Source: Histidinibacterium lentulum (GTDB lineage: Bacteria > Pseudomonadota > Alphaproteobacteria > Rhodobacterales > Rhodobacteraceae). Taken from it: 64,000 nt of DNA. The notes beneath the pieces were generated by a model that saw only the letters and a list, made by a program, of their open reading frames with translations, did no database searches and was not told the origin of the DNA. The translations under genes and the position numbers were made by a program. The stretch is taken from assembly GCF_003789055.1 (NCBI RefSeq), contig NZ_ML119081.1, forward strand, positions 124,001 through 188,000, written 5' to 3'. Shown piece after piece: positions 5,403-47,859 of this stretch (positions are counted from its first letter, which is position 1; the number at the start of each line of letters is the position of its first letter).

Positions 5403-6080
5403 ATGGTATTGAAAGAAATGCTCGCTCGGGTGGAAGAGCGTCGCAAAGCCAAGAACCTGTCGAAGCGCCAAGTTGGCATTCTGGCCGGTCGCTCGGGCGA
5501 CTTGATCCGCAACTGGGAGCGCCGGGCAGAGAGCGGGAAGCCGGTGGAGCGTGGGGCTGACAACGAGGCCATCGACGCCGTGGCGAAGGTGTTGGGAGTG
5601 ACCGGGGACTGGCTTCGCGAGGGCGGCGATCTCGACGGCGACAGTTTGAAATTGACGCAAAGCACTGATAATATTACGTATGTTCCCCTTTTTGAGATTG
5701 ATGCAATCGAATGTCGAGGGGATCGCCTACATGTGCCGAATGAACTTAAGGCTTTCGGGTTTCCATCTGATTTCCTGCGGCGGCTGACCAATTCACCCTA
5801 TCAGGAGCTTTGTGTTGTCGCTGTACGTGGAGAGGCGATGGTGCCCGTTCTGATGGACGGCGATGTAGTTCTTCTAGATCGGTCCCGGAACAGTACTGAC
5901 CGGGACGGTCTGTTTGCCGTGGGCTACGGTTCTGCGGTTAAGATACGGAAACTGGATCGGGCACCTAATGGATTCCAAGTGAGCGTCCTGGCAGCCAATC
6001 CCGCATACGCTAGTTATGAAGTTGACACTGACGCACTACACGTTGTCGGGCAGGCTGTCTGGATTGGCAGGCGCGTGTAA
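5403..6080 (+). CDS. Orphan XRE-type HTH / S24 peptidase-like repressor, nucleophile serine replaced
   Basis: Phage-repressor/LexA-like protein of 225 aa: an N-terminal HTH (about residues 3-65; KNLSKRQVGILAGRSGDLIRNWE) and a C-terminal S24-type beta domain (about 95-225). In the segment VRGEAMVPVLMDGDVVLLD the position normally held by the self-cleavage serine (usual form G-D-S-M-x-P) is alanine; a lysine that may correspond to the catalytic base is present further on (GSAVKIRKL). If the alignment is right it cannot self-cleave and would be a constitutive or differently induced repressor. Codon use is less GC-biased than in neighbouring genes, and no other phage gene is nearby, so it looks like a transferred or relic gene. 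Its target is unknown apart from a possible operator in its own promoter. Confidence 0.8.
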   Translation: MVLKEMLARVEERRKAKNLSKRQVGILAGRSGDLIRNWERRAESGKPVERGADNEAIDAVAKVLGVTGDWLREGGDLDGDSLKLTQSTDNITYVPLFEIDAIECRGDRLHVPNELKAFGFPSDFLRRLTNSPYQELCVVAVRGEAMVPVLMDGDVVLLDRSRNSTDRDGLFAVGYGSAVKIRKLDRAPNGFQVSVLAANPAYASYEVDTDALHVVGQAVWIGRRV

Positions 6081-6131
6081 CTGCTTCCGGCTGACTTTGT
6101 CTGAAAATTATCTTTCAAAGAAAAGACTTAA

Positions 6132-6155
6132 GGGGCGTCCACGTGTGGACGCCCC
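6132..6155 (-). terminator. Perfect hairpin terminator between convergent genes
   Basis: A GGGGCGTCCA stem and its perfect complement form a 10-bp hairpin with a four-base loop (CGTG). On the minus strand it is followed by TTAAGTCTTTT, so it best terminates the DsbA-family gene; on the plus strand it also closes the repressor-like gene. Confidence 0.75.
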
Positions 6156-6169
6156 CGGGACCCCGGCGT

Positions 6170-6928
6170 TCAGCCGTCGCTTGAGGCCCGGACCTCGTCC
6201 ACCACCACCTGCATCTGCGCTGCCGGCAGGTAGCCCCGCAGGAGCTCGTCGCCCACGACGAAGGTGGGCGTGCCCGAAATCTGCATCCTCTGGGCAAGCG
6301 CTCGGTTCTCCTCGATCACCTGCGCCACGGCGACCGACCCCATCTCGTCCAGGATCGGCTGCGGCTCGAACCCGAACCCCTCCGCAAGCTGCGCCAGCGT
6401 CTCCGGCGTCGCATCGGCGCGCAGGCTGATGAGCGCGTCATGAACGTCCTTGTAGGCCGCGTCCCCATGCAGACGCTTGACCGCGATGGCGAACTGGGAG
6501 CTCGCAAGGGAGGACTCTCCGAGGATCGGATATTCTTTCATGATCAGGCGGATATTGCCGTCCTGTTCAAGCAGTGCCTCAACTTCGGGATGCGCCCGCC
6601 GGCAGAATCCGCAGCGGTAGTCCACGAACTCCACGATGGTCACGTCCCCGTCCGGATTGCCCCCGACCCAGGAATGCCCGTCGTTCCACAGGGCCTCGCG
6701 GTTTTCCCGGGCCAGCATCCGGTCCGCCTCGGCCTGTGCCATCGCCTCGCGCTGTTCCAGCACCCCGATCGCCTCCATCAGCACCTCGGGATTGTCGAGC
6801 AGGTAGGCCCGCACCTCCGCGCGGAAGGCCGCGCGCTCGGCATCGGTCATCGCCTCGAGATCGAAGGCCGCGGCGGGCGTGGCGAGGCTCGCGGCAAGGG
6901 CGAGGGCGGCAAGGCGGCTGCGGGTCAT
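6170..6928 (-). CDS. Periplasmic DsbA-family thiol oxidoreductase
   Basis: Exported thioredoxin-fold protein (252 aa). It has a signal peptide with cleavage near residue 21 (LATPAAA|FDLEAM), a helical N-terminal region rich in Glu/Ala (about 25-80), then a thioredoxin domain with the redox motif CGFC (Cys106, Cys109) after FVDYR and the cis-proline loop SGTPTFVVG near residue 225. The arrangement resembles the DsbA-like/ScsC-type proteins of alphaproteobacteria, with a possible oligomerising N-terminal stalk. Probable role: disulfide formation or isomerisation in the periplasm. It is divergent from the aminotransferase gene, with a 125-bp shared upstream region, and ends at a strong hairpin terminator. 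Confidence 0.9.
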   Translation of the reverse strand: MTRSRLAALALAASLATPAAAFDLEAMTDAERAAFRAEVRAYLLDNPEVLMEAIGVLEQREAMAQAEADRMLARENREALWNDGHSWVGGNPDGDVTIVEFVDYRCGFCRRAHPEVEALLEQDGNIRLIMKEYPILGESSLASSQFAIAVKRLHGDAAYKDVHDALISLRADATPETLAQLAEGFGFEPQPILDEMGSVAVAQVIEENRALAQRMQISGTPTFVVGDELLRGYLPAAQMQVVVDEVRASSDG

Positions 6929-7053
6929 TCAGGGTCTCCAGGGCTCGGGCGACGCGGCCCTTCCATCACGAAACGGTGCCACTGCCAAGGCCGCGGCGCA
7001 TTGACGAGCCCGTGCGGCCCTTGGCACACCGGGACAAAGCTTGAGGTAGGGTC

Positions 7054-38358: not shown

Positions 38359-38538
38359 GTCTGGTCTCCCGCGTCTGGTCCCATGCGCATCCGGCCATGG
38401 GGCTCCGGGCGCCTCCTATAGACCGGTCAACCCCCAGCGCCAACCGCGAAAAGCGGCGGCGCGGCCGGGCTTCCCTTGATCCGGGCGGGGAAAGCTGATG
38501 TGGTCCCGCGACGTTTTCGGAAGCCTGGACCTCCCGCC

Positions 38539-39543
38539 ATGGACATCGAGATACAGACGGTCCCCATCGCGGATCCGCCGTCGAGGCCGCGCCGCTTCGT
38601 CTTCGTGCTACTGGACCGGTTCACGCTGCTCTGCTTCTCCTGCGCGGTGGAATCCCTCCGCATCGCCAACCGCATGGCGGGGCGGGAGCTCTATTCCTGG
38701 GAGCTGTCCGGCGAGGGCGGCGAGACGGCGACCTGCTCGGCCGGCATCTCTCTGGCGCTGACCATGGACCTCGGCGAGCTCGACCGGGAGGATACGGTCC
38801 TTCTGTGCGGCGGCATCGACGTGCAGCAGGCCACGACGAAGCGGCTGATCTCCTGGCTCCGGCGCGAGGCGCGCAAGGGGGTGACCATGGGCGGGCTCTG
38901 CACCGCGGGCTACAGCCTCGCCAGGGCGGGGCTGCTCGAGGGCAGGCGGGCGACGATCCACTGGGAGAACCAGGACAGCTTCGCCGAGCAGTTCGACGAG
39001 GTGACGCTGACGAAATCGGTCTTCGTGATCGACGGCAACCGCATCACCACCGCGGGCGGCACCGCCTCCATCGACCTCATGCTGAAGATCATCGCGGACG
39101 ACCATGGCGAGGAGCTGGCCACGGCCGTGGCCGACCAGCTCATCTATTCGTCGATCCGCACCGACCAGGATACCCAGCGGCTCTCGATCCCCACCCGGAT
39201 CGGCGTGCGGCACCCGAAGCTCAGCCAGGTCATCCAGATGATGGAGCACAACATAGAAGAGCCGATCAGCCCCTCGATCCTCGCGCGGGACGTGGGCATG
39301 TCCACGCGGCAGCTCGAGCGGCTGTTCCGGCGCTATCTCAGCCGTTCGCCCAAGCGCTACTACATGGAGCTGCGCCTGCAGAAGGCGCGGAACCTGCTGA
39401 TGCAGACCGACATGAGCGTGATCAACGTGGCGCTGGCCTGCGGCTTCACCTCGCCGTCGCATTTCTCGAAATGCTACCGCGCCCATTACGACACGACGCC
39501 CTATCGCGAACGCGGCGCCCACGGGGCGCGGATGGCGGTCTGA
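38539..39543 (+). CDS. GlxA-family AraC-type transcriptional regulator
   Basis: A 334-aa regulator with an N-terminal DJ-1/PfpI-like glutamine-amidotransferase-type sensor domain (about 20-200; VFVLLDRFTLLCFSCAVESLRIAN, and MGGLCTAGYSLARAGLLEGRRATIHWEN at the nucleophile-elbow region) and a C-terminal AraC double helix-turn-helix (about 225-325; ISPSILARDVGMSTRQLERLFRRYLSRSPKRYYMELRLQKARNLL...VALACGFTSPSHFSKCYRAHY). It is similar to the GbdR/CdhR group that controls glycine-betaine or carnitine catabolism in Pseudomonas; the target here is not shown by context. Confidence 0.9.
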   Translation: MDIEIQTVPIADPPSRPRRFVFVLLDRFTLLCFSCAVESLRIANRMAGRELYSWELSGEGGETATCSAGISLALTMDLGELDREDTVLLCGGIDVQQATTKRLISWLRREARKGVTMGGLCTAGYSLARAGLLEGRRATIHWENQDSFAEQFDEVTLTKSVFVIDGNRITTAGGTASIDLMLKIIADDHGEELATAVADQLIYSSIRTDQDTQRLSIPTRIGVRHPKLSQVIQMMEHNIEEPISPSILARDVGMSTRQLERLFRRYLSRSPKRYYMELRLQKARNLLMQTDMSVINVALACGFTSPSHFSKCYRAHYDTTPYRERGAHGARMAV

Positions 39544-39586: not shown

Positions 39587-40033
39587 TCAGAACTGCTGCA
39601 TGATGTAGCCCGCGCTCGTGTTCACCTCGAAGCGGATCACGACGAGCTCTTCGCCCCGGTCGTGCAGCAGCGCGTAGAAGTAGCCGTACTGCTTGCCCGT
39701 CCAGAACGCCCGCGCCTCCTCGCGAAACCCGTTCCCGTGATCCACCGCCCTCATGAGCGACTGGTTCTCGAAATCTCTCGGCAGGGCCCGGGTGAGCTGG
39801 GCGTTCACCGCCACGAGCTCCTCGGCGGAGTATTCGTTGCCCCCTCCGAGGGCCACCACCAGTCCGGCGAAGTCGCGGACGCTGATCGTGTCGACGACAT
39901 AGCTCTCGTAGCTGTCGTAATCGGCGAAGACGGCGGGCACGATGGGCTCCGCCGCGGAGGACTGTCCGAGGCAGAGGGCGAGAACGGCGGCGAGTCGGGC
40001 GGCGCGGGGGGAAGCTGTGGCGTCGACGGGCAT
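39587..40033 (-). CDS. Secreted protein of unknown function
   Basis: A 148-aa product with a probable signal peptide (AARLAAVLALCLGQSSAAE) and a compact mature part (PIVPAVFADYDSYESYVVDTISVRDFAGLVVALGGGNEYSAEELVAVNAQLTRALPRDFEN...YGYFYALLHDRGEELVVIRFEVNT). No cysteine pairs or known domain. The start at 40033 (MPVDATASP) begins the signal sequence; the longer frame to 40090 is unlikely. It is convergent with the GlxA-type regulator and divergent from the HAAT binding-protein gene. Confidence 0.6.
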   Translation of the reverse strand: MPVDATASPRAARLAAVLALCLGQSSAAEPIVPAVFADYDSYESYVVDTISVRDFAGLVVALGGGNEYSAEELVAVNAQLTRALPRDFENQSLMRAVDHGNGFREEARAFWTGKQYGYFYALLHDRGEELVVIRFEVNTSAGYIMQQF

Positions 40034-40150
40034 CGGAACCTCCGGTGATATCGCTCGCGGAAGGCTAGCCCCGGGTGCGCGCCGGGCCAAGCGTCTGCCC
40101 GCCGCTACGCTGCTTCTTTCCTTTTGCGGCGGGCCGTTTTAGGTTTCCGG

Positions 40151-40182: not shown

Positions 40183-41376
40183 ATGAAAAGACTGCTTCTC
40201 GCCTCCGCGGCGACCCTCGCCGGCAGCATGGCCTTCGCCCAGTCCGACGGTGAGACCGTCAAGATCGGCGTCATCCTGGGCTTCACCGGCCCGATCGAAA
40301 GCCTGACGCCCCACATGGCCGATTCGGCCGAACTCGCGATCAACGAGATCAACGAGGCCGGCGGCGTGCTCGGCGGCATGATGCTCGAGTCCGTGCGCGC
40401 GGATTCGACCTGCATCGACAACGCCGCCGCCACCGCCGCGGCCGAGCGTCTCGTGACCTCGGACGGCGTCGTCGCGATCATGGGCGCGGACTGCTCCGGC
40501 GTGACCGGCGCGGTGCTCTCGAACGTCGCGGTGCCGAACGGCATCCCGATGATCTCGCCCTCCGCCACCTCGCCCGCGCTCTCCACGGCCGAGGACAACG
40601 ACCTCTTCTTCCGCACGGCTCCGTCCGACGCCCGCCAGGGCGAGGTGCTGGCGCAGATCGCCATGGACGCCGGCGTGTCAGAAGTGGCGGTGAGCTACAC
40701 CAATTCCGACTACGGCAAGGGCCTCTCGGACAGCTTCACCGCGGCCTTCGAGGCGATGGGCGGCACCGTGACGATCGCCGCGCCCCATGAGGACGGCAAG
40801 GCGGACTATTCCGCCGAGGTCGCCGCGGCCGACGCCGCGGGCGGCGAGGTGCTGGCCGTGCTCGGCTATTCCGACGGCGGCGGCGCGGGCATGATCCAGG
40901 CCGCGACCGACACCGGCGCCTTCGACACCTTCCTGATGGGCGACGGCATGTATGGCGAGGCCCTGCTGGCCAGCTTGGGCGACGTGATGGAAGGCTCCAT
41001 GGGCGCCGTGCCCTGGGCCGAAGGCGAAGGCACCGATGCGTTCAACGACGCCGCAGAGGCCGCGGGCATCAACTTCGGCAGCTCCTTCACCCGCGAGAGC
41101 TATGACGCCGCGGCCCTGATCGCGCTCGCGATGCAGGCCGGCGGAGAGGCGACCCCCGCCGCCATCGCCGCCAACATCATGAACGTGGCCAATGCGCCGG
41201 GCGAGCCGATCCTGCCGGGCGAGCTGGCCCGCGGGCTGCAGATCCTCGCCGACGGGGGCGAGATCGACTATGTCGGCGCCACCAACGTGGAACTGATCGG
41301 ACCCGGTGAAGCCGCCGGCACCTATCGCCACTACACGGTGACCGATTCCGCCTACGAAACGGTCGAATTCAAGTAA
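40183..41376 (+). CDS. Branched-chain amino acid type (HAAT) ABC transporter substrate-binding protein
   Basis: Periplasmic-binding protein of 397 aa (Peripla_BP_6) with a signal peptide (MKRLLLASAATLAGSMAFAQ). The mature protein begins VKIGVILGFTGPIESLTPHMADSAELAINEINEAGGVLGG and contains ADSTCIDNAAATAAAERLV, GADCSGVTGAVLSN and PMISPSATSPALS, typical LivJ/LivK-type segments. The ligand could be a branched-chain or other amino acid, an amide or urea derivative. It is the first gene of the transporter cluster and is separated from the ATPase gene by two stem-loops. Confidence 0.92.
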   Translation: MKRLLLASAATLAGSMAFAQSDGETVKIGVILGFTGPIESLTPHMADSAELAINEINEAGGVLGGMMLESVRADSTCIDNAAATAAAERLVTSDGVVAIMGADCSGVTGAVLSNVAVPNGIPMISPSATSPALSTAEDNDLFFRTAPSDARQGEVLAQIAMDAGVSEVAVSYTNSDYGKGLSDSFTAAFEAMGGTVTIAAPHEDGKADYSAEVAAADAAGGEVLAVLGYSDGGGAGMIQAATDTGAFDTFLMGDGMYGEALLASLGDVMEGSMGAVPWAEGEGTDAFNDAAEAAGINFGSSFTRESYDAAALIALAMQAGGEATPAAIAANIMNVANAPGEPILPGELARGLQILADGGEIDYVGATNVELIGPGEAAGTYRHYTVTDSAYETVEFK

Positions 41377-41531: not shown

Positions 41532-42335
41532 ATGGCCGGACCGATGATCGAGGTGCGCGACGTGGTGAAGGCCTTCGGCGGCTTTCGCGCCGTCGACGGC
41601 GCCAGCCTCGAGATCGCGCGCGGCTCTGTGACCGGTCTCATCGGTCCCAACGGCGCGGGCAAGTCCACGCTCTTCAACGTCATCGCCGGGCTGCTGCCGC
41701 CCACGTCGGGCTCCGTGATCCTCGACGGCGACGACATTACCGGCCTGCCGCCGCACCAGCTCTTTCACAAGGGCCTGCTTCGCACCTTCCAGATCGCCCA
41801 CGAGTTCAGCTCCATGACCGTGCGCGAGAACCTGATGATGGTGCCCGGCGGCCAGTCCGGGGAAACGCTCTGGAACGCCTGGTTCCACCGCGGACGCATC
41901 GCGCAGGAGGAACGCGCCCTCGCGCAGAAGGCCGACGAGGTGCTGGACTTCCTGACCATCGATCATCTGGCCGACGAGAAGGCGGGGAACCTTTCGGGCG
42001 GCCAGAAGAAGCTGCTGGAACTGGGCCGCACGATGATGGTCGACGCCCGCATCGTCTTCCTCGACGAGGTGGGCGCCGGCGTGAACCGCACGCTGCTGAA
42101 CACGATCGGCGACGCCATCCTTCGGCTGAACGCGGAGCGCGGCTACACCTTCGTCGTGATCGAACATGACATGGATTTCATCGGACGGCTCTGCGACCCG
42201 GTCATCTGCATGGCCGAGGGCAAGGTGCTTGCCGAAGGCACGCTCGACGAGATCAAGGCCAACGAGCAGGTGATCGAGGCCTATCTCGGCACCGGGCTCA
42301 AGAACAAGGGCAAGCTGGCGGGGGCCGGCGCGTGA
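41532..42335 (+). CDS. livG: HAAT ABC transporter ATP-binding protein (LivG type)
   Basis: A 267-aa ATPase with Walker A GPNGAGKSTLFNVIAGLLPP, Q-loop RTFQIAHEFSSMTVRENL, signature NLSGGQKKLLELGRTMMVDARIVFLDE (Walker B) and the family-typical C-terminus EIKANEQVIEAYLGTG. It begins after AGGGGA; its stop overlaps the GTG start of the first tandem secreted protein (GTGA), so the ATPase and the three unknown proteins are translationally coupled. Confidence 0.93.
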   Translation: MAGPMIEVRDVVKAFGGFRAVDGASLEIARGSVTGLIGPNGAGKSTLFNVIAGLLPPTSGSVILDGDDITGLPPHQLFHKGLLRTFQIAHEFSSMTVRENLMMVPGGQSGETLWNAWFHRGRIAQEERALAQKADEVLDFLTIDHLADEKAGNLSGGQKKLLELGRTMMVDARIVFLDEVGAGVNRTLLNTIGDAILRLNAERGYTFVVIEHDMDFIGRLCDPVICMAEGKVLAEGTLDEIKANEQVIEAYLGTGLKNKGKLAGAGA

Positions 42336-42856
42336 TCCGGACGCTCCTGCCCTCCCTCGGTCTCGCGCTCCTCGCCCCGCCTCTTGCCGCGCTGGAATGC
42401 TACGACCTCGCCGGCACGACGGTGAGCTTCTGCCCGGACGCCGAGGTCTTCGACGGCTGGACCTTCGCGGAGATGGAGACCCGCATCCAGGGTGCGGACG
42501 CCGGGACCGTGCAGCTCGTCACCATCATGCGCCACGATCCCGAGCGGCTGACACCGGAGGCCCTGCGCGAGGCCGCGAACGAGGTGGCGCAGAGTTTCCT
42601 CGACCGCGGGATGGACGCGATGCAGCCGCTCCTCCAGGACCGGCCGGCGCATCCCGGCGCCGAGACCGCGCGTCTCGCCTTCCTCGTCGGGGGCGGCGAC
42701 AGCATCTCGGCGATCACCGTGACCCTGGTCGGCGCGCCGGCGGGCACGTTCCTCGTCCAGACCGGCGTCCGGGAGGCCGGCTACGTCACCGAGGCCCATT
42801 CCGGCTTCGCGGCCGCCGCGCTCGAGGCCCTGCGCGGCCTGGAGGGCGTGGATTGA
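42332..42856 (+). CDS. Tandem secreted two-cysteine protein 1, unknown function
   Basis: A 174-aa exported protein (signal MIRTLLPSLGLALLAPPLAA). Its mature N-terminus ECYDLAGTTVSFCPDA has two cysteines 11 residues apart, probably a disulfide. The rest is alpha/beta: TVQLVTIMRHDPERLTPEALREAANEVAQSFLDRG, LLQDRPAHPGAETARLAFLVGGGD, and a closing helix GYVTEAHSGFAAAALEALRGL. The next two genes share this plan, so they look like diverged duplicates. The GTG start overlaps the livG stop. No named domain recognised. Confidence 0.72.
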   Translation: MIRTLLPSLGLALLAPPLAALECYDLAGTTVSFCPDAEVFDGWTFAEMETRIQGADAGTVQLVTIMRHDPERLTPEALREAANEVAQSFLDRGMDAMQPLLQDRPAHPGAETARLAFLVGGGDSISAITVTLVGAPAGTFLVQTGVREAGYVTEAHSGFAAAALEALRGLEGVD

Positions 42857-43365
42857 GACCGATGCTGCCGGTCCTCGCGCTCGGCCTCGCTATCGGGCCG
42901 GCGGCGGCCTTCGCGCAGGAGGGCTGCACCGAGCTGGGCGCGGACCTTGCCTTCTGTCCCGGGGGCACCGGATGGGAGGGCGTTCCGCTCGAGACGGCGG
43001 AGATCGGCCTCACCCTGACATCCGGAGACGTCACCCTCTCGATCCAGGCCGTCGAGGTGCCCGAGGACCCTTCCGCGGAGGAGCTGCGCCTGACGGTGAC
43101 CGACATGGCCGAGCGGCTGATCGGCGACGACCTGTCCGCCTTCCGGCCGATCCTCGAGGACCGCCCCGAGACCGGCGCCGGCCTCGCCCTGCGCGTCGCC
43201 TTCGTGTCGGGCAGCTTCGACGAGCCGCTGGTCTTCGCGCTTACCATCGTGTCCACCGGCGGCGGCGTGGCGTTGATCCAGACGCGCGCCGAGGCGGAAT
43301 ATCTCGACGAAACCCATTCCGCGCTCCACAGGGACGCCATCTCGGCCCTGGGGGTGCGTCCGTGA
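42853..43365 (+). CDS. Tandem secreted two-cysteine protein 2, unknown function
   Basis: A 170-aa exported protein (signal LPVLALGLAIGPAAAFAQ). The mature start EGCTELGADLAFCPGG repeats the two-cysteine pattern of its neighbours; mid-protein RPILEDRPETGAGLALRVAFVSG aligns with LLQDRPAHPGAETARLAFLVG of protein 1, and the C-terminal YLDETHSALHRDAISALGV matches YVTEAHSGFAAAALEALRG. The TTG start at 42853 overlaps the preceding stop (TTGA) and has GGAGG seven bases upstream; ATG 42862 is too distant from that site. Confidence 0.72.
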   Translation: MRPMLPVLALGLAIGPAAAFAQEGCTELGADLAFCPGGTGWEGVPLETAEIGLTLTSGDVTLSIQAVEVPEDPSAEELRLTVTDMAERLIGDDLSAFRPILEDRPETGAGLALRVAFVSGSFDEPLVFALTIVSTGGGVALIQTRAEAEYLDETHSALHRDAISALGVRP

Positions 43366-43955
43366 AGCTCCCGGCCGTTCTCGCGCTCGCGCTGATCGTG
43401 GGGCTCGACCTGCGGGCCGAAGAGGGCTGCACCGCCCTGCCCTCCGGCGTGGCCTTCTGCGGCGCCGCGGCAGGTCTCGCTCCCGATGCGATCGAGCAGA
43501 CGCCCGACGGCACCGCGCTTCTGGCCGCGCTCGGCCCCTACGGCCTCAGGGTGGAGGTGGCCGTGCTCTCGGCCTCCGCCACGACCGATCCGTGGTTCGT
43601 GCGCCGCGAGCTCGACGCCTTTCTCGCCGCGGAGCGTGGTCTCACGGAGGGCCTGCCGGAGCTGGCGCGCGACCGCGTCGCCCTCACCGACCGCGCCGCC
43701 GAGCAGGTCGTCTATGCGCTGGGCGATGGCGACGAGGCGGTGACCGTGGCCGATACCGTGGTGCTGGGCGACGGCTTTGCCGTCTACGTGCTGACCTACG
43801 ATACCGGCGCAGCCTTCACGGCCGATCATGCCCGCACCCATGACGCGGCGCTTGCCGCCCTGCGCCTGCCGCCGCCCCGCGATCCGGATCTCTGGACGGT
43901 GCCCTCGGACCGCCCCGATCCGCGCCCGCTGAACCCGATGCCGCCCGGCGGCTGA
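43362..43955 (+). CDS. Tandem secreted two-cysteine protein 3, unknown function
   Basis: A 197-aa exported protein (signal VKLPAVLALALIVGLDLRA). The mature start EEGCTALPSGVAFCGAA matches the two-cysteine motif of proteins 1 and 2. The body is more diverged, with a Pro/Asp-rich C-terminal tail (DRPDPRPLNPMPPGG) after the helix FTADHARTHDAALAALRLP that corresponds to the closing helix of the others. The GTG start overlaps the preceding stop (GTGA). It is followed by the LivF-type ATPase gene after about 45 bp. Confidence 0.7.
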   Translation: MKLPAVLALALIVGLDLRAEEGCTALPSGVAFCGAAAGLAPDAIEQTPDGTALLAALGPYGLRVEVAVLSASATTDPWFVRRELDAFLAAERGLTEGLPELARDRVALTDRAAEQVVYALGDGDEAVTVADTVVLGDGFAVYVLTYDTGAAFTADHARTHDAALAALRLPPPRDPDLWTVPSDRPDPRPLNPMPPGG

Positions 43956-44000
43956 GCCATGTGCCCTCCCGCCCGGGACGGCACGACGGAGGACGAGCCT

Positions 44001-44819
44001 GTGACCGACGCCTATTCCGACCGCGGCAACAAGGACCGCTCCATCGCCAATCCGCGCGACGGGGCGAGCATGTCCTCGTCGCTGAAGGGCGAGGCCACGC
44101 CCTCGACCGAGACGGCCTTTCTCGCCGGAATCGACATGACCGGCGGCTATGGCAGGGGGGCGGATATCCTGCACGCCTGCACCGTCTCGGTGGACCCGGG
44201 CGAGATCGCCGTGATCGTGGGCCCCAACGGCGCGGGCAAGTCCACGGCGATGAAGGCCGTCTTCGGGATGCTCGACCTGCGCGAGGGCCGGGTCGTGCTC
44301 GACGGCCAGGACATCAGCCGCCTTTCGCCCCAGGACCGCGTCGCCGCCGGCATGGGCTTCGTGCCGCAGGTGCGCAACATCTTCACCTCGCTCACCGTCG
44401 AGGAGAATCTCGAGATGGGCGCCTTCCTGCGCCGCGACGACATCCGCCCCACCATGGAGCAGGTCTACGACCTCTTTCCCATCCTGCGCGACAAGCGCCG
44501 CCAGCCCGCCGGAGAGCTGTCGGGCGGACAGCGCCAGCAGGTCGCCGTGGGCCGCGCGCTGATGACCCGGCCCAAGGTGCTGATGCTCGACGAGCCCACC
44601 GCCGGCGTCAGCCCCATCGTCATGGACGAGCTCTTCGACCGGATCATCGAGGTCAGCCGCACCGGCATCCCGATCCTGATGGTCGAACAGAATGCCCGCC
44701 AGGCCCTCGAGATCGCCGACCGCGGCTATGTGCTGGTCCAGGGCCGCAATGCCTTCACCGGCACCGGGCGCGAACTCCTCGCCGACCCCGAGGTGCGCAA
44801 GAGCTTCCTCGGCGGCTGA
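44001..44819 (+). CDS. livF: HAAT ABC transporter ATP-binding protein (LivF type)
   Basis: A 272-aa ATPase with an unusually long N-terminal lead (about 40 polar residues, TDAYSDRGNKDRSIANPRDG) before the core. Core motifs: GGYGRGADILHACTVSVDPGEI, Walker A GPNGAGKSTAMKAVFGM, Q-loop VPQVRNIFTSLTVEENLEMG, signature LSGGQRQQVAVGRALM, Walker B VLMLDEPTAGVSP and H-region ILMVEQNARQALEIADRGYVL. I prefer the GTG at 44001 with GGAGG eight bases upstream over the ATG at 43959. Confidence 0.92.
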   Translation: MTDAYSDRGNKDRSIANPRDGASMSSSLKGEATPSTETAFLAGIDMTGGYGRGADILHACTVSVDPGEIAVIVGPNGAGKSTAMKAVFGMLDLREGRVVLDGQDISRLSPQDRVAAGMGFVPQVRNIFTSLTVEENLEMGAFLRRDDIRPTMEQVYDLFPILRDKRRQPAGELSGGQRQQVAVGRALMTRPKVLMLDEPTAGVSPIVMDELFDRIIEVSRTGIPILMVEQNARQALEIADRGYVLVQGRNAFTGTGRELLADPEVRKSFLGG

Positions 44820-44931: not shown

Positions 44932-45426
44932 ATGACCCGCCTGTTCCCTGCCCTGCCCGCCGCCGCCGCGATGGCCGTCCTCGCCGGTCCCGCCGCGGCC
45001 GAGAGCTACGCCTGCGCCTATGTCCGGGCCTGCGTGCCCGATGGGCTTTGCGCCCCTCACGAGACCGGTCTGACCCTCTTCGCGCCGCAGGTGGCGGTCG
45101 AGGGCGAAGGAAATGCGAACGACGGGGCGGACCAGACCCCCGGTACGGTCGTCGAGGGGAGCGACTCCGGTGCGGGCGGCACCCAGCAGTTCGGCGCCGA
45201 CCAGCAGGGCAGCGTGCACTGGGGCATCCAGATCGTGCCGGTGTTCGAACCCGCCCGCGACCGGGACGACAGCACCCGCGCCTTCCTGTCGCTCGGGTCG
45301 TCGGAATACGTGCTGACCCTGCTGCCCGATCTGACCTCCGAACTCGCCTATTTCGTCAACAGCGAACTCGTCTCGACGCTCGAAGGCGCCTGCCTTCCCA
45401 TCGGCGAGGACGACGGCGACGCCTGA
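44932..45426 (+). CDS. Secreted cysteine-containing protein in the HAAT cluster, unknown function
   Basis: A 164-aa exported protein (signal ALPAAAAMAVLAGPAAA). The mature start ESYACAYVRACVPDGLCAPHETGLTLF has three closely spaced cysteines, then a Gly/Asp/Gln-rich stretch and a beta-rich region (WGIQIVPVFEPARDRDDSTRAFLSLGSSEYVLTLLPD) with a fourth cysteine near the C-terminus (LEGACLPIGED). It does not obviously belong to the two-cysteine trio. Position between livF and livH suggests it is expressed with the transporter, but its role is unknown. Confidence 0.65.
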   Translation: MTRLFPALPAAAAMAVLAGPAAAESYACAYVRACVPDGLCAPHETGLTLFAPQVAVEGEGNANDGADQTPGTVVEGSDSGAGGTQQFGADQQGSVHWGIQIVPVFEPARDRDDSTRAFLSLGSSEYVLTLLPDLTSELAYFVNSELVSTLEGACLPIGEDDGDA

Positions 45427-45547: not shown

Positions 45548-46561
45548 TTGACGGATATGCTGAACGCCCTCGTGGCGCTTATGAACTTCGTGGTCATCCC
45601 GGCCACCGCCTATGGCGCGCAGCTGGCGCTCGGCGCGCTCGGCGTCACGCTCATCTACGGCATCCTGCGCTTCTCGAATTTCGCCCATGGCGACACCATG
45701 GCCTTCGGCACCATGGTGACGATCCTCCTGACCTGGGCGCTGCAGGCGGCGGGCGTCAGCCTCGGCCCCCTGCCCACCGCCCTCATCGCCATGCCCGTGG
45801 GCATCCTGGGCGCGGCCGCGCTGCTCCTGCTGACCGACCGCTTCGTCTACCGCTTCTACCGCGCGCAGCGGGCGGCGCCGGTGATCCTCGTGATCGTCTC
45901 CATGGGGGTGATGTTCGTCTACAACGGTCTCACCCGCTTCGTGATCGGCGTGGACGACCAGCGCTTCGCCGATGGCGAGCGCTTCATCCTGTCGGCGAAC
46001 GCCTTCCGCGACTGGTCCGGCCTCGACGAGGGCCTCGCGCTCCGGACCACCCAGGCCATCACCATCGTGACCGCGATCATCGTCGTCGCGGCGCTCTTCT
46101 GGTTCCTGAACCGCACCCGCACCGGCAAGTCGATGCGCGCCTTCTCCGACAACGAGGACCTGGCCCTGCTGTCGGGCATCAGCCCGGAACGGGTCGTCAT
46201 GGTGACCTGGCTTCTGGTGGCCGCGCTCGCGACCATCGCGGGCACGCTTTACGGACTCGACAAGACCTTCAAGCCCTTCACCTATTTCCAGCTCCTGCTG
46301 CCGATCTTCGCCGCGGCCATCGTCGGCGGGCTGGGCTCGCCCATCGGAGCCATCGCGGGCGGTTTCATCATCGCCTTCGCTGAGGTCGCGATCACCTATC
46401 CGCTGCGCAAGATCCTCTCCTACCTCCTGCCGGAGGCATGGGAACCCGCGGGCCTCGTCCAGCTTCTGGCGACGGAATACAAGTTTGCAGTCTCCTTCAT
46501 CATCCTGATCGTGGTGCTGCTGATCCGGCCCACGGGCCTCTTCAAGGGCAAGGCCGTATGA
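45548..46561 (+). CDS. livH: HAAT ABC transporter permease (LivH type)
   Basis: Inner-membrane permease of 337 aa with about eight hydrophobic helices. Typical LivH stretches: ALGALGVTLIYGILRFSNFAHGDTMAFG near the N-terminus, and the coupling region FLNRTRTGKSMRAFSDNEDLALLSGISPERVVMVTWLLVAALATIAGTLYG, followed by LLLPIFAAAIVGGLGSPIGAIAGGFIIAFAEV. The TTG at 45548 with GGGGGAC upstream is the likely start; ATG 45557 is possible. Its stop overlaps the livM start (ATGA). Confidence 0.93.
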   Translation: MTDMLNALVALMNFVVIPATAYGAQLALGALGVTLIYGILRFSNFAHGDTMAFGTMVTILLTWALQAAGVSLGPLPTALIAMPVGILGAAALLLLTDRFVYRFYRAQRAAPVILVIVSMGVMFVYNGLTRFVIGVDDQRFADGERFILSANAFRDWSGLDEGLALRTTQAITIVTAIIVVAALFWFLNRTRTGKSMRAFSDNEDLALLSGISPERVVMVTWLLVAALATIAGTLYGLDKTFKPFTYFQLLLPIFAAAIVGGLGSPIGAIAGGFIIAFAEVAITYPLRKILSYLLPEAWEPAGLVQLLATEYKFAVSFIILIVVLLIRPTGLFKGKAV

Positions 46562-47859
46562 GCAACTCCCTTCGCATTCCGCTCTTTTCGGGGCTCGTGG
46601 CGCTGCTGATCCTCGGAACGGGGATGGTGCAGGGCTGGAACTCGGCGCTGCTGATCCTGAACATGGGCCTCGTCTCGGCGATCATGGCGCTGGGGGTGAA
46701 CCTGCAGTGGGGCTTTGCGGGGCTGTTCAACGTGGGCGTGATGGGCTTCGTGGCTCTCGGGGGCCTCGCCACGGTGCTCATCGCCATGGATCCCGTGGGC
46801 CCGGCCTGGGAGGCGGGGGGCCTCGGCATCCTCGCGGCCATGGCGCTCGGCGCCGCGACCATCGTGGCCGCGATCCTGACGTTCCGGGCGGCGCCGGCCC
46901 GCTGGCGGGGATGGGCCACCTTCGCGGTGATCGTCGTGGGCTTCACGATCTACCGTTCGGTCTTCGATCCGGCGCGGACCGCGGTCGAGGCCGTGGACCC
47001 GGCGGCCACCGGCTTTCTCGGCGGGCTCGGCCTGCCGGTGGTTCTCGCCTGGCCCGTGGGCGGGCTCCTTGCCGCGGGCGCGGCCTGGATCATCGGCAAG
47101 ACCGCCCTCGGCCTGCGCTCGGATTACCTCGCCATCGCCACGCTCGGCATCGCCGAGATCATCATCGCGATCCTGAAGAGCGAGGACTGGCTGTCGCGCG
47201 GCGTCAAGAACGTCAACAACATCCCCCGCCCGGTGCCCGACGCGGTGGAACTCCAGGCCGATCCGGGCTTCATCGCCTTCGCCTCGGACTGGGGGGTCAG
47301 CGTGGTGGACGCGGCCAACATCTCGATCAAGCTCGGCTACACGGCGATGTTCTCCGTCGTGCTGGTGGCCCTGCTGATCCTGGCCCAGCTCGCGCTGAAC
47401 TCGCCCTGGGGCCGCATGATGCGCGCGATCCGCGACAACGAGACCGCTGCCGGGGCCATGGGCAAGGACGTCACCCGCCGCCACCTGCAGATCTTCATCC
47501 TCGGCTCCGCGGTCTGCGGCATGGCGGGGGCGATGATGACGACGCTCGACGGGCTTCTCGTGCCCTCCACATACCAGCCCCTGCGCTACACCTTCCTGAT
47601 CTGGGTGATGGTGATCGTGGGCGGGTCGGGCAACAACTACGGCGCGGTGATCGGGGGGTTCCTCGTCTGGTGGCTCTGGGTCCAGGTGGAGCCCATGGGC
47701 GCCGCGCTCCTTGCCGCGGTCACCTCGCTGATGCCCGAGGGCAGCGCGCTCGCGGACCATCTGATGGGCTCCGCAGCCCACATGCGTCTGCTGACCATGG
47801 GCCTCGTCCTGCTCCTGGTGCTGCGGTTCAGCCCGCGCGGCCTCGTCCCCGAGCGCTGA
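46558..47859 (+). CDS. livM: HAAT ABC transporter permease (LivM type)
   Basis: Inner-membrane permease of 433 aa with about ten helices. Hallmarks: MALGVNLQWGFAGLFNVGVMGFVALGG, GLRSDYLAIATLGIAEIIIAILKSEDWLSRGVKN, the coupling helix SPWGRMMRAIRDNETAAGAMGKDVTRRHLQIFILGSAVCGMAGAMM, and MVIVGGSGNNYGAVIGGFLVW. It completes the transporter (binding protein, two ATPases, two permeases). Ends about 30 bp before a repeat-rich intergenic element. Confidence 0.93.
   Translation: MSNSLRIPLFSGLVALLILGTGMVQGWNSALLILNMGLVSAIMALGVNLQWGFAGLFNVGVMGFVALGGLATVLIAMDPVGPAWEAGGLGILAAMALGAATIVAAILTFRAAPARWRGWATFAVIVVGFTIYRSVFDPARTAVEAVDPAATGFLGGLGLPVVLAWPVGGLLAAGAAWIIGKTALGLRSDYLAIATLGIAEIIIAILKSEDWLSRGVKNVNNIPRPVPDAVELQADPGFIAFASDWGVSVVDAANISIKLGYTAMFSVVLVALLILAQLALNSPWGRMMRAIRDNETAAGAMGKDVTRRHLQIFILGSAVCGMAGAMMTTLDGLLVPSTYQPLRYTFLIWVMVIVGGSGNNYGAVIGGFLVWWLWVQVEPMGAALLAAVTSLMPEGSALADHLMGSAAHMRLLTMGLVLLLVLRFSPRGLVPER

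Follow-up and report, generated by a model that had tools for sequence, protein, structure and literature searches.

In a 64,000-nucleotide stretch of the Histidinibacterium lentulum genome (contig NZ_ML119081.1, positions 124,001 to 188,000; hereafter the window), the operon of an ATP-binding cassette (ABC) importer of the HAAT (LIV-I) type carries, between its livG-type and livF-type ATPase genes, three tandem genes for exported-type proteins, P1, P2 and P3. The three proteins share a common descent, an N-terminal pair of cysteines and, as far as one structure model indicates, a known fold; their genes are coupled to livG through overlapping stops and starts, and their relatives show a clear preference for the same slot, in which they are gained, lost and diverge quickly. 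On balance, and with considerable reserve, we take P1–P3 to be probably dedicated periplasmic accessory proteins of this importer, the plain role being to tune or stabilise it.

A two-cysteine family between livG and livF

An earlier note, made from the letters of this stretch alone, had proposed that a duplicated family of exported-type proteins with a shared two-cysteine N-terminus lies between the two ATPase genes, and comparison of the proteins bears this out. Local alignments of the mature parts, with leaders removed, score far above chance when set against 1000 shuffles, with z values of 21.2 for P1 and P2 and 10.4 for P2 and P3 (no shuffle reaching the score in either case) and of 3.7 for P1 and P3 (5/1000 shuffles reaching it). 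P1 and P2 are 32% identical (E 3e-18), P2 and P3 27% (E 3e-7), and comparing the P1/P2 type with the P3 type by hhalign, leaders included, gives a probability of 98% (E 9e-15). The hhalign and shuffle scores hence place P3 in the family throughout its length, a step beyond the original claim for P1 and P2. Of the stop and start overlaps proposed throughout the array, those at 42332 (livG/P1, GTGA), 42853 (P1/P2, TTGA) and 43362 (P2/P3, GTGA) stand, while there is none between P3 and livF: the P3 stop ends at 43955, the livF frame opens at an ATG at 43959, and the LivF N-terminus conserved in the genus starts at a GTG at 44001.

The N-termini of all three proteins are hydrophobic and signal-peptide-like; these leaders, called by eye without a signal-peptide program, are what points to export. 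The first cysteine is preceded by LE in P1 and by EG in P2 and P3, none of which forms a canonical lipobox, and no cysteine beyond the pair occurs in any of the three. Across 34 aligned members (12 from the genus, 10 found with a profile built from the genus only, and 12 picked by eye among the genes in the slot), the two cysteines are the sole invariant columns, nine residues apart in 32/34 members and ten apart in 2/34, P1 being one of the latter. This invariance is partly due to selection, because the cysteine pair helped to choose the 12 members added by eye. A profile of the first 22 members recovered 10 of these 12 at E<=6e-8 (best decoy 0.18), leaving unconfirmed L096 (E 0.17) and the second gene of L200 (no hit), the locus of Vannielia litorea, which may thus have two copies; with leader and hairpin removed, 8/12 kept E<=3e-4 and a further two reached 0.03 and 0.1 (best decoy 6.2). 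L096 groups in the tree with the confirmed L210 (support 100/98), and counts that include L096, or a copy number of two for L200, carry doubt. Many members from outside the genus (L200, at 5652-6260; L097, L110, L130, L224) are longer at the N-terminus, a further segment with a VGTAVVGGKKVELLSDGTWRY-like motif standing ahead of the cysteine pair.

Four subtypes can be distinguished in the genus. The window encodes P1, P2 (type B) and P3 (type C), G001 and G002 carry B and C, G004 carries B, C and D, and G003 carries C and D, preceded by an 82-residue gene without a leader. An ortholog of P3 is present in 5/5 genomes of the genus, the window's included, and P3 groups with the four other C proteins (100/97). 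P2 groups with the B protein of G002 (97/93), close to the remaining B proteins, and P1 is diverged, lying on a long branch close to the B type (83/92). In the C-terminal part of P2 (residues 155-159) and P3 (residues 156-160) an HxxxH motif is found, which recurs in 17/34 members and could form a metal site, albeit not a universal one.

Unrelated folds had been named beforehand as an outcome that would speak against a single family. The model of P2, the only one of the three that was modelled, predicts instead a Mog1/PsbP/DcrB fold with alpha-beta sandwich topology, to which P1 and P3 are assigned by profile homology. Identity to named chains of this superfamily is 8–11%, and 13 members searched against Pfam and NCBIfam gave no match to the DcrB, PsbP, Mog1 or LpqN families, at a Pfam cut of E<=5 and with HMMER filters that drop most weak matches. 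The family is hence new to the searched profile libraries, though its fold is known, and no description of its function was found. The earlier note had suggested a chaperone, a ligand modifier or an envelope sensor as candidate roles. When the model was compared with other structures, no enzyme-like match stood out, and the predicted fold points to a docking module, not an enzyme; proteins of the PsbP fold usually serve as docking or adaptor modules.

Distribution and turnover in the importer operon

The family is tied to this importer well beyond the genus, among marine Rhodobacteraceae. Run on 295 Rhodobacteraceae genomes, the genus-only profile found it in 10 genomes of 10 other genera (E<=2.1e-7), each time between livG and livF, and a broader profile, run on 394 genomes, matched 28 at E<=1e-4, 24 of them in the slot; these whole-genome searches scored part of the first-look candidates, and misses are possible. 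Homologues are therefore not placed at random with respect to HAAT genes, the second outcome that the earlier note had set against its own proposal, and independent lineages encode them together with the importer, as would be expected of an accessory subunit. On 289 genomes of the class, the broader profile gave three matches: the genome of the window, a second genome of the Rhodobacteraceae, and G591, of another family and off the slot.

The slot itself is seldom filled. Orthologs of livG at E<=1e-115 occur in 131/149 Rhodobacteraceae genomes. In a first survey of 100 regions, picked roughly by score order from 132 listed livG places, livF was called downstream in 95, with a gap of at most 181 bases in 80 and of at least 331 in 15, and in a scan based on the LivF N-terminus, 12 of the 80 named loci obtained had at least 300 bases. 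Removal of nine duplicates from 184 loci left 175, of which five lacking a livF call were excluded; the resulting 170 distinct loci include the four other genomes of the genus and exclude the window. Fewer than 300 bases separate livG from the aligned livF start in 143 of them, leaving no room for such a gene, and the slot is occupied in the other 27. Besides those with the two-cysteine family, eight slots are occupied: three by four-cysteine genes (L065, L143, L163), one by a degraded-looking four-cysteine gene (L196) and four by other genes or frames (L066, L137, L150, L191). The L196 frame (6645-6953) resembles the end of a four-cysteine gene, although most of the cysteines have been lost from it. 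A protein of 82-83 residues (VWHGA...YHAIKHQLPEDTAL...) without a signal peptide occurs in the slot in two genera (L023:6759-7004 and L066:6507-6755), and its L023 copy has no Pfam match.

On a tree of LivG, LivF and LivH, the 20 positive rows of 175 require at least 14 gains or losses by parsimony, a figure obtained with no shuffled control. Divergence is fast within the genus, where the two-cysteine proteins range from 36 to 61% identity against 83–91% for LivG. Mean identities are 87% for LivG, 86% for LivF, 84% for LivH, 76% for LivM and 71% for LivK, and 51%, 43% and 36% for the C, B and D types, the last from a single pair.

The finding is wider than first stated, since this operon also offers a slot to another family. 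Between livF and livH lies the gene for P4, an exported-type protein with four cysteines, whose family occupies this position in 75/170 loci and forms tandem arrays with as many as five genes (uncultured Roseicyclus, L176; Rhodobacterales bacterium HKCCE4037, L207). These counts rest on the cysteine pattern, and the raw array counts include an over-long frame in L207, with the fifth gene at its end as read by eye, and a 56-residue frame in L131. The family alignment (A6; members in L159-L238 and P4) has four invariant cysteines, one member was modelled as an eight-stranded barrel, and six members had no match in Pfam. On the same tree this family requires 45 changes, again by parsimony with no shuffled control.

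A proposed accessory role and its alternatives

In the accessory model, translation coupled to livG would tie the production of P1–P3 to that of the importer. Once exported, each protein would form a disulfide between its two cysteines, closing the N-terminal hairpin. When folded, the proteins may bind LivH/LivM from the periplasmic side, or else LivK, much as PsbP docks on a membrane complex, and so stabilise or tune the importer. The several diverged copies could represent several docking or specificity variants.

A number of observations weigh against this model. Export is read from the leaders only, and physical docking is a prediction. Among the ten genomes that were new to the broader profile, just six have the gene in the slot, and the proposition that homologues always lie between livG and livF does not hold: the off-slot genomes among the 28 are G236, G383, G294 and G385, and five divergent members in all lie apart, with no liv gene within ~1.5 kb (tblastn) and, as read by eye, no common theme among their neighbours. 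The two-cysteine family is present in just 19/170 distinct loci, the doubtful L096 among them, so that most orthologous operons lack it, and other genes sometimes fill the slot (L066, L137, L150, L191), which makes it a partly permissive site. Furthermore, such fast divergence is not what one usually sees in a subunit whose partner surface is fixed. The absence of the family from most orthologous operons implies that P1–P3, if accessory proteins, are lineage-specific modulators, not obligate subunits.

The fast divergence and the turnover raise the possibility, which we regard as rather unlikely, that P1–P3 act as a shield for an importer which contact-dependent toxins, bacteriocins or phage DNA use as a doorway, by covering or altering its periplasmic face. 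An arms race would then have left its mark in the tandem copies and in how often the genes are gained and lost; the two to three copies carried in the genus and the variation of the second family, with its own long arrays, fit this reading. We know of no toxin or phage that uses this importer, PADLOC gives no match for P1–P4, and relaxed constraint can equally yield fast evolution. Precedent exists for ABC permeases as toxin doors, in that GltJK is reported to act in this way in Burkholderia (PMC9291907). An extension of this idea, which we hold to be unlikely, has both families together make up a variable coat in the periplasm, by which the importer would be concealed from toxins or phages that enter through it. 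Two unrelated exported disulfide families, the PsbP-fold two-cysteine proteins in arrays of up to three and the beta-barrel four-cysteine proteins, would both be produced along with the importer and show the turnover of arms-race genes.

The operon that P1–P3 have in common with the binding protein is also what one would expect of a periplasmic helper in ligand handover or modification, as AztD is for AztC. AztD, of the AztABCD system of Paracoccus denitrificans, is reported to be a periplasmic accessory of an ABC importer, like the role proposed here. Its organism belongs to the same bacterial family as the source of the window. AztD is a beta-propeller, unlike P1–P3, and its importer is one for zinc. 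The C-terminal HxxxH could bind metal, but it is missing in 17/34 members, P1 included, and the binding protein resembles binders of Leu/Ile/Val, not of metals; together with the lack of an enzyme-like fold match, this makes a helper of the binding protein distinctly unlikely.

It is less probable still that P1–P3 are orphan immunity proteins akin to Tli4 and Tsi3 that came to be parked in an operon with good expression, where they would neutralise incoming periplasmic effectors with no relation to the importer. A parked gene would be expected in many places, whereas the genus-only profile places the family in a single slot in all ten other genera. Unlike the type VI secretion system (T6SS) immunity proteins Tli4/TplEi and Tsi3, P1–P3 hold a fixed slot in a transporter operon and have liv genes as neighbours, with no adjoining effector in the window and the genus, no search having been made for T6SS genes elsewhere in the genome. 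Finally, it is highly improbable that the genes are mere passengers of a coupled livG-livF junction that tolerates inserts, using its expression with no functional tie: most relatives lack an insert, and 4/27 occupied slots (L066, L137, L150, L191) hold neither cysteine family and a fifth (L196) only a degraded-looking gene, but the two-cysteine family sits mostly here (24/28 genomes), and overlapping starts are available in divergent lineages.

The operon and its place among known systems

All five subunit types of a HAAT importer are found together in the window by profile matches, in the order livK, livG, P1, P2, P3, livF, P4, livH, livM (Table 1). These matches do not fix the substrate, as the scores of the binding protein, the ATPases and the permeases all fall short of the curated Liv/Urt cut-offs of NCBIfam. 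LivF has an N-terminal extension (YSDRGNKDRSIANP...) of ~50 residues ahead of the ATPase domain (44001-44160), kept in the genus and present in some relatives. Beside the operon, a gene for a DJ-1/PfpI plus AraC-type (GlxA-like) regulator (38476-39543, + strand) could regulate the importer, and between it and livK a small, probably exported protein with no Pfam match is encoded on the opposite strand (39587-40090).

Table 1. Importer genes, two- and four-cysteine genes and cysteine pairs, with positions in the window.
Feature	Position	Strand	Remarks
livK-type substrate-binding protein	40183..41376	+	Peripla_BP_6 E 2e-44; closest solved structures are Leu/Ile/Val-binding proteins, E 5e-25
livG-type ATPase	41532..42335	+	NCBIfam UrtD/LivG E ~1e-59, under curated cut-offs
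P1, exported-type two-cysteine protein, 174 aa	42332..42856	+	Start overlaps livG stop; Mog1/PsbP/DcrB-like via homology to P2
P1 cysteines Cys23 and Cys34, C-x10-C	42398..42433	+	
P2, exported-type two-cysteine protein, 170 aa	42853..43365	+	TTG start over P1 stop; ATG 42862 alternative
P2 cysteines Cys25 and Cys35, C-x9-C	42925..42957	+	Flank short strand pair in model
P3, exported-type two-cysteine protein, 197 aa	43362..43955	+	Start overlaps P2 stop; proline-rich C-terminal tail
P3 cysteines Cys23 and Cys33, C-x9-C	43428..43460	+	
livF-type ATPase	44001..44819	+	NCBIfam UrtE/LivF, under cut-offs; 85-88% identity in genus
P4, exported-type four-cysteine protein	44932..45426	+	Profile of other loci (genus ortholog among them) E 1e-9
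livH-type permease	45548..46561	+	NCBIfam profile match
livM-type permease	46555..47859	+	Start inferred at MSNSL, overlaps livH end

With HAAT/LIV-I systems (LivKHMGF) the operon shares the five subunit types and differs in the three two-cysteine genes and the four-cysteine gene interleaved among them; to our knowledge, the LIV-I operon of E. coli has no gene of the P1–P3 kind. Within the Mog1/PsbP/DcrB superfamily (PsbP, DcrB, LpqN, Mog1, SciW/EagR), P1–P3 are set apart by their N-terminal C-x9/10-C pair and their placement in a HAAT operon. DcrB of E. coli and Salmonella is a lipoprotein, whereas P1–P3 lack a canonical lipobox before the first cysteine and stand in tandem in a transporter operon. 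What would be new here are accessory-type proteins of an ABC importer that combine a known fold, a new family and an unusual turnover.

HAAT-type ABC importers are usually drawn as assemblies of five fixed parts, and here a widespread amino-acid-type importer is accompanied by exported-type partners that change fast. Both of their families are absent from the profile libraries searched, and one has, as modelled, the PsbP/DcrB fold. If the families of P1–P4 bind the importer, a core uptake system would be modulated or defended lineage by lineage, and proteins without a family would acquire a testable function. Close relatives naturally differ in the presence of these genes, which makes the claim directly testable.
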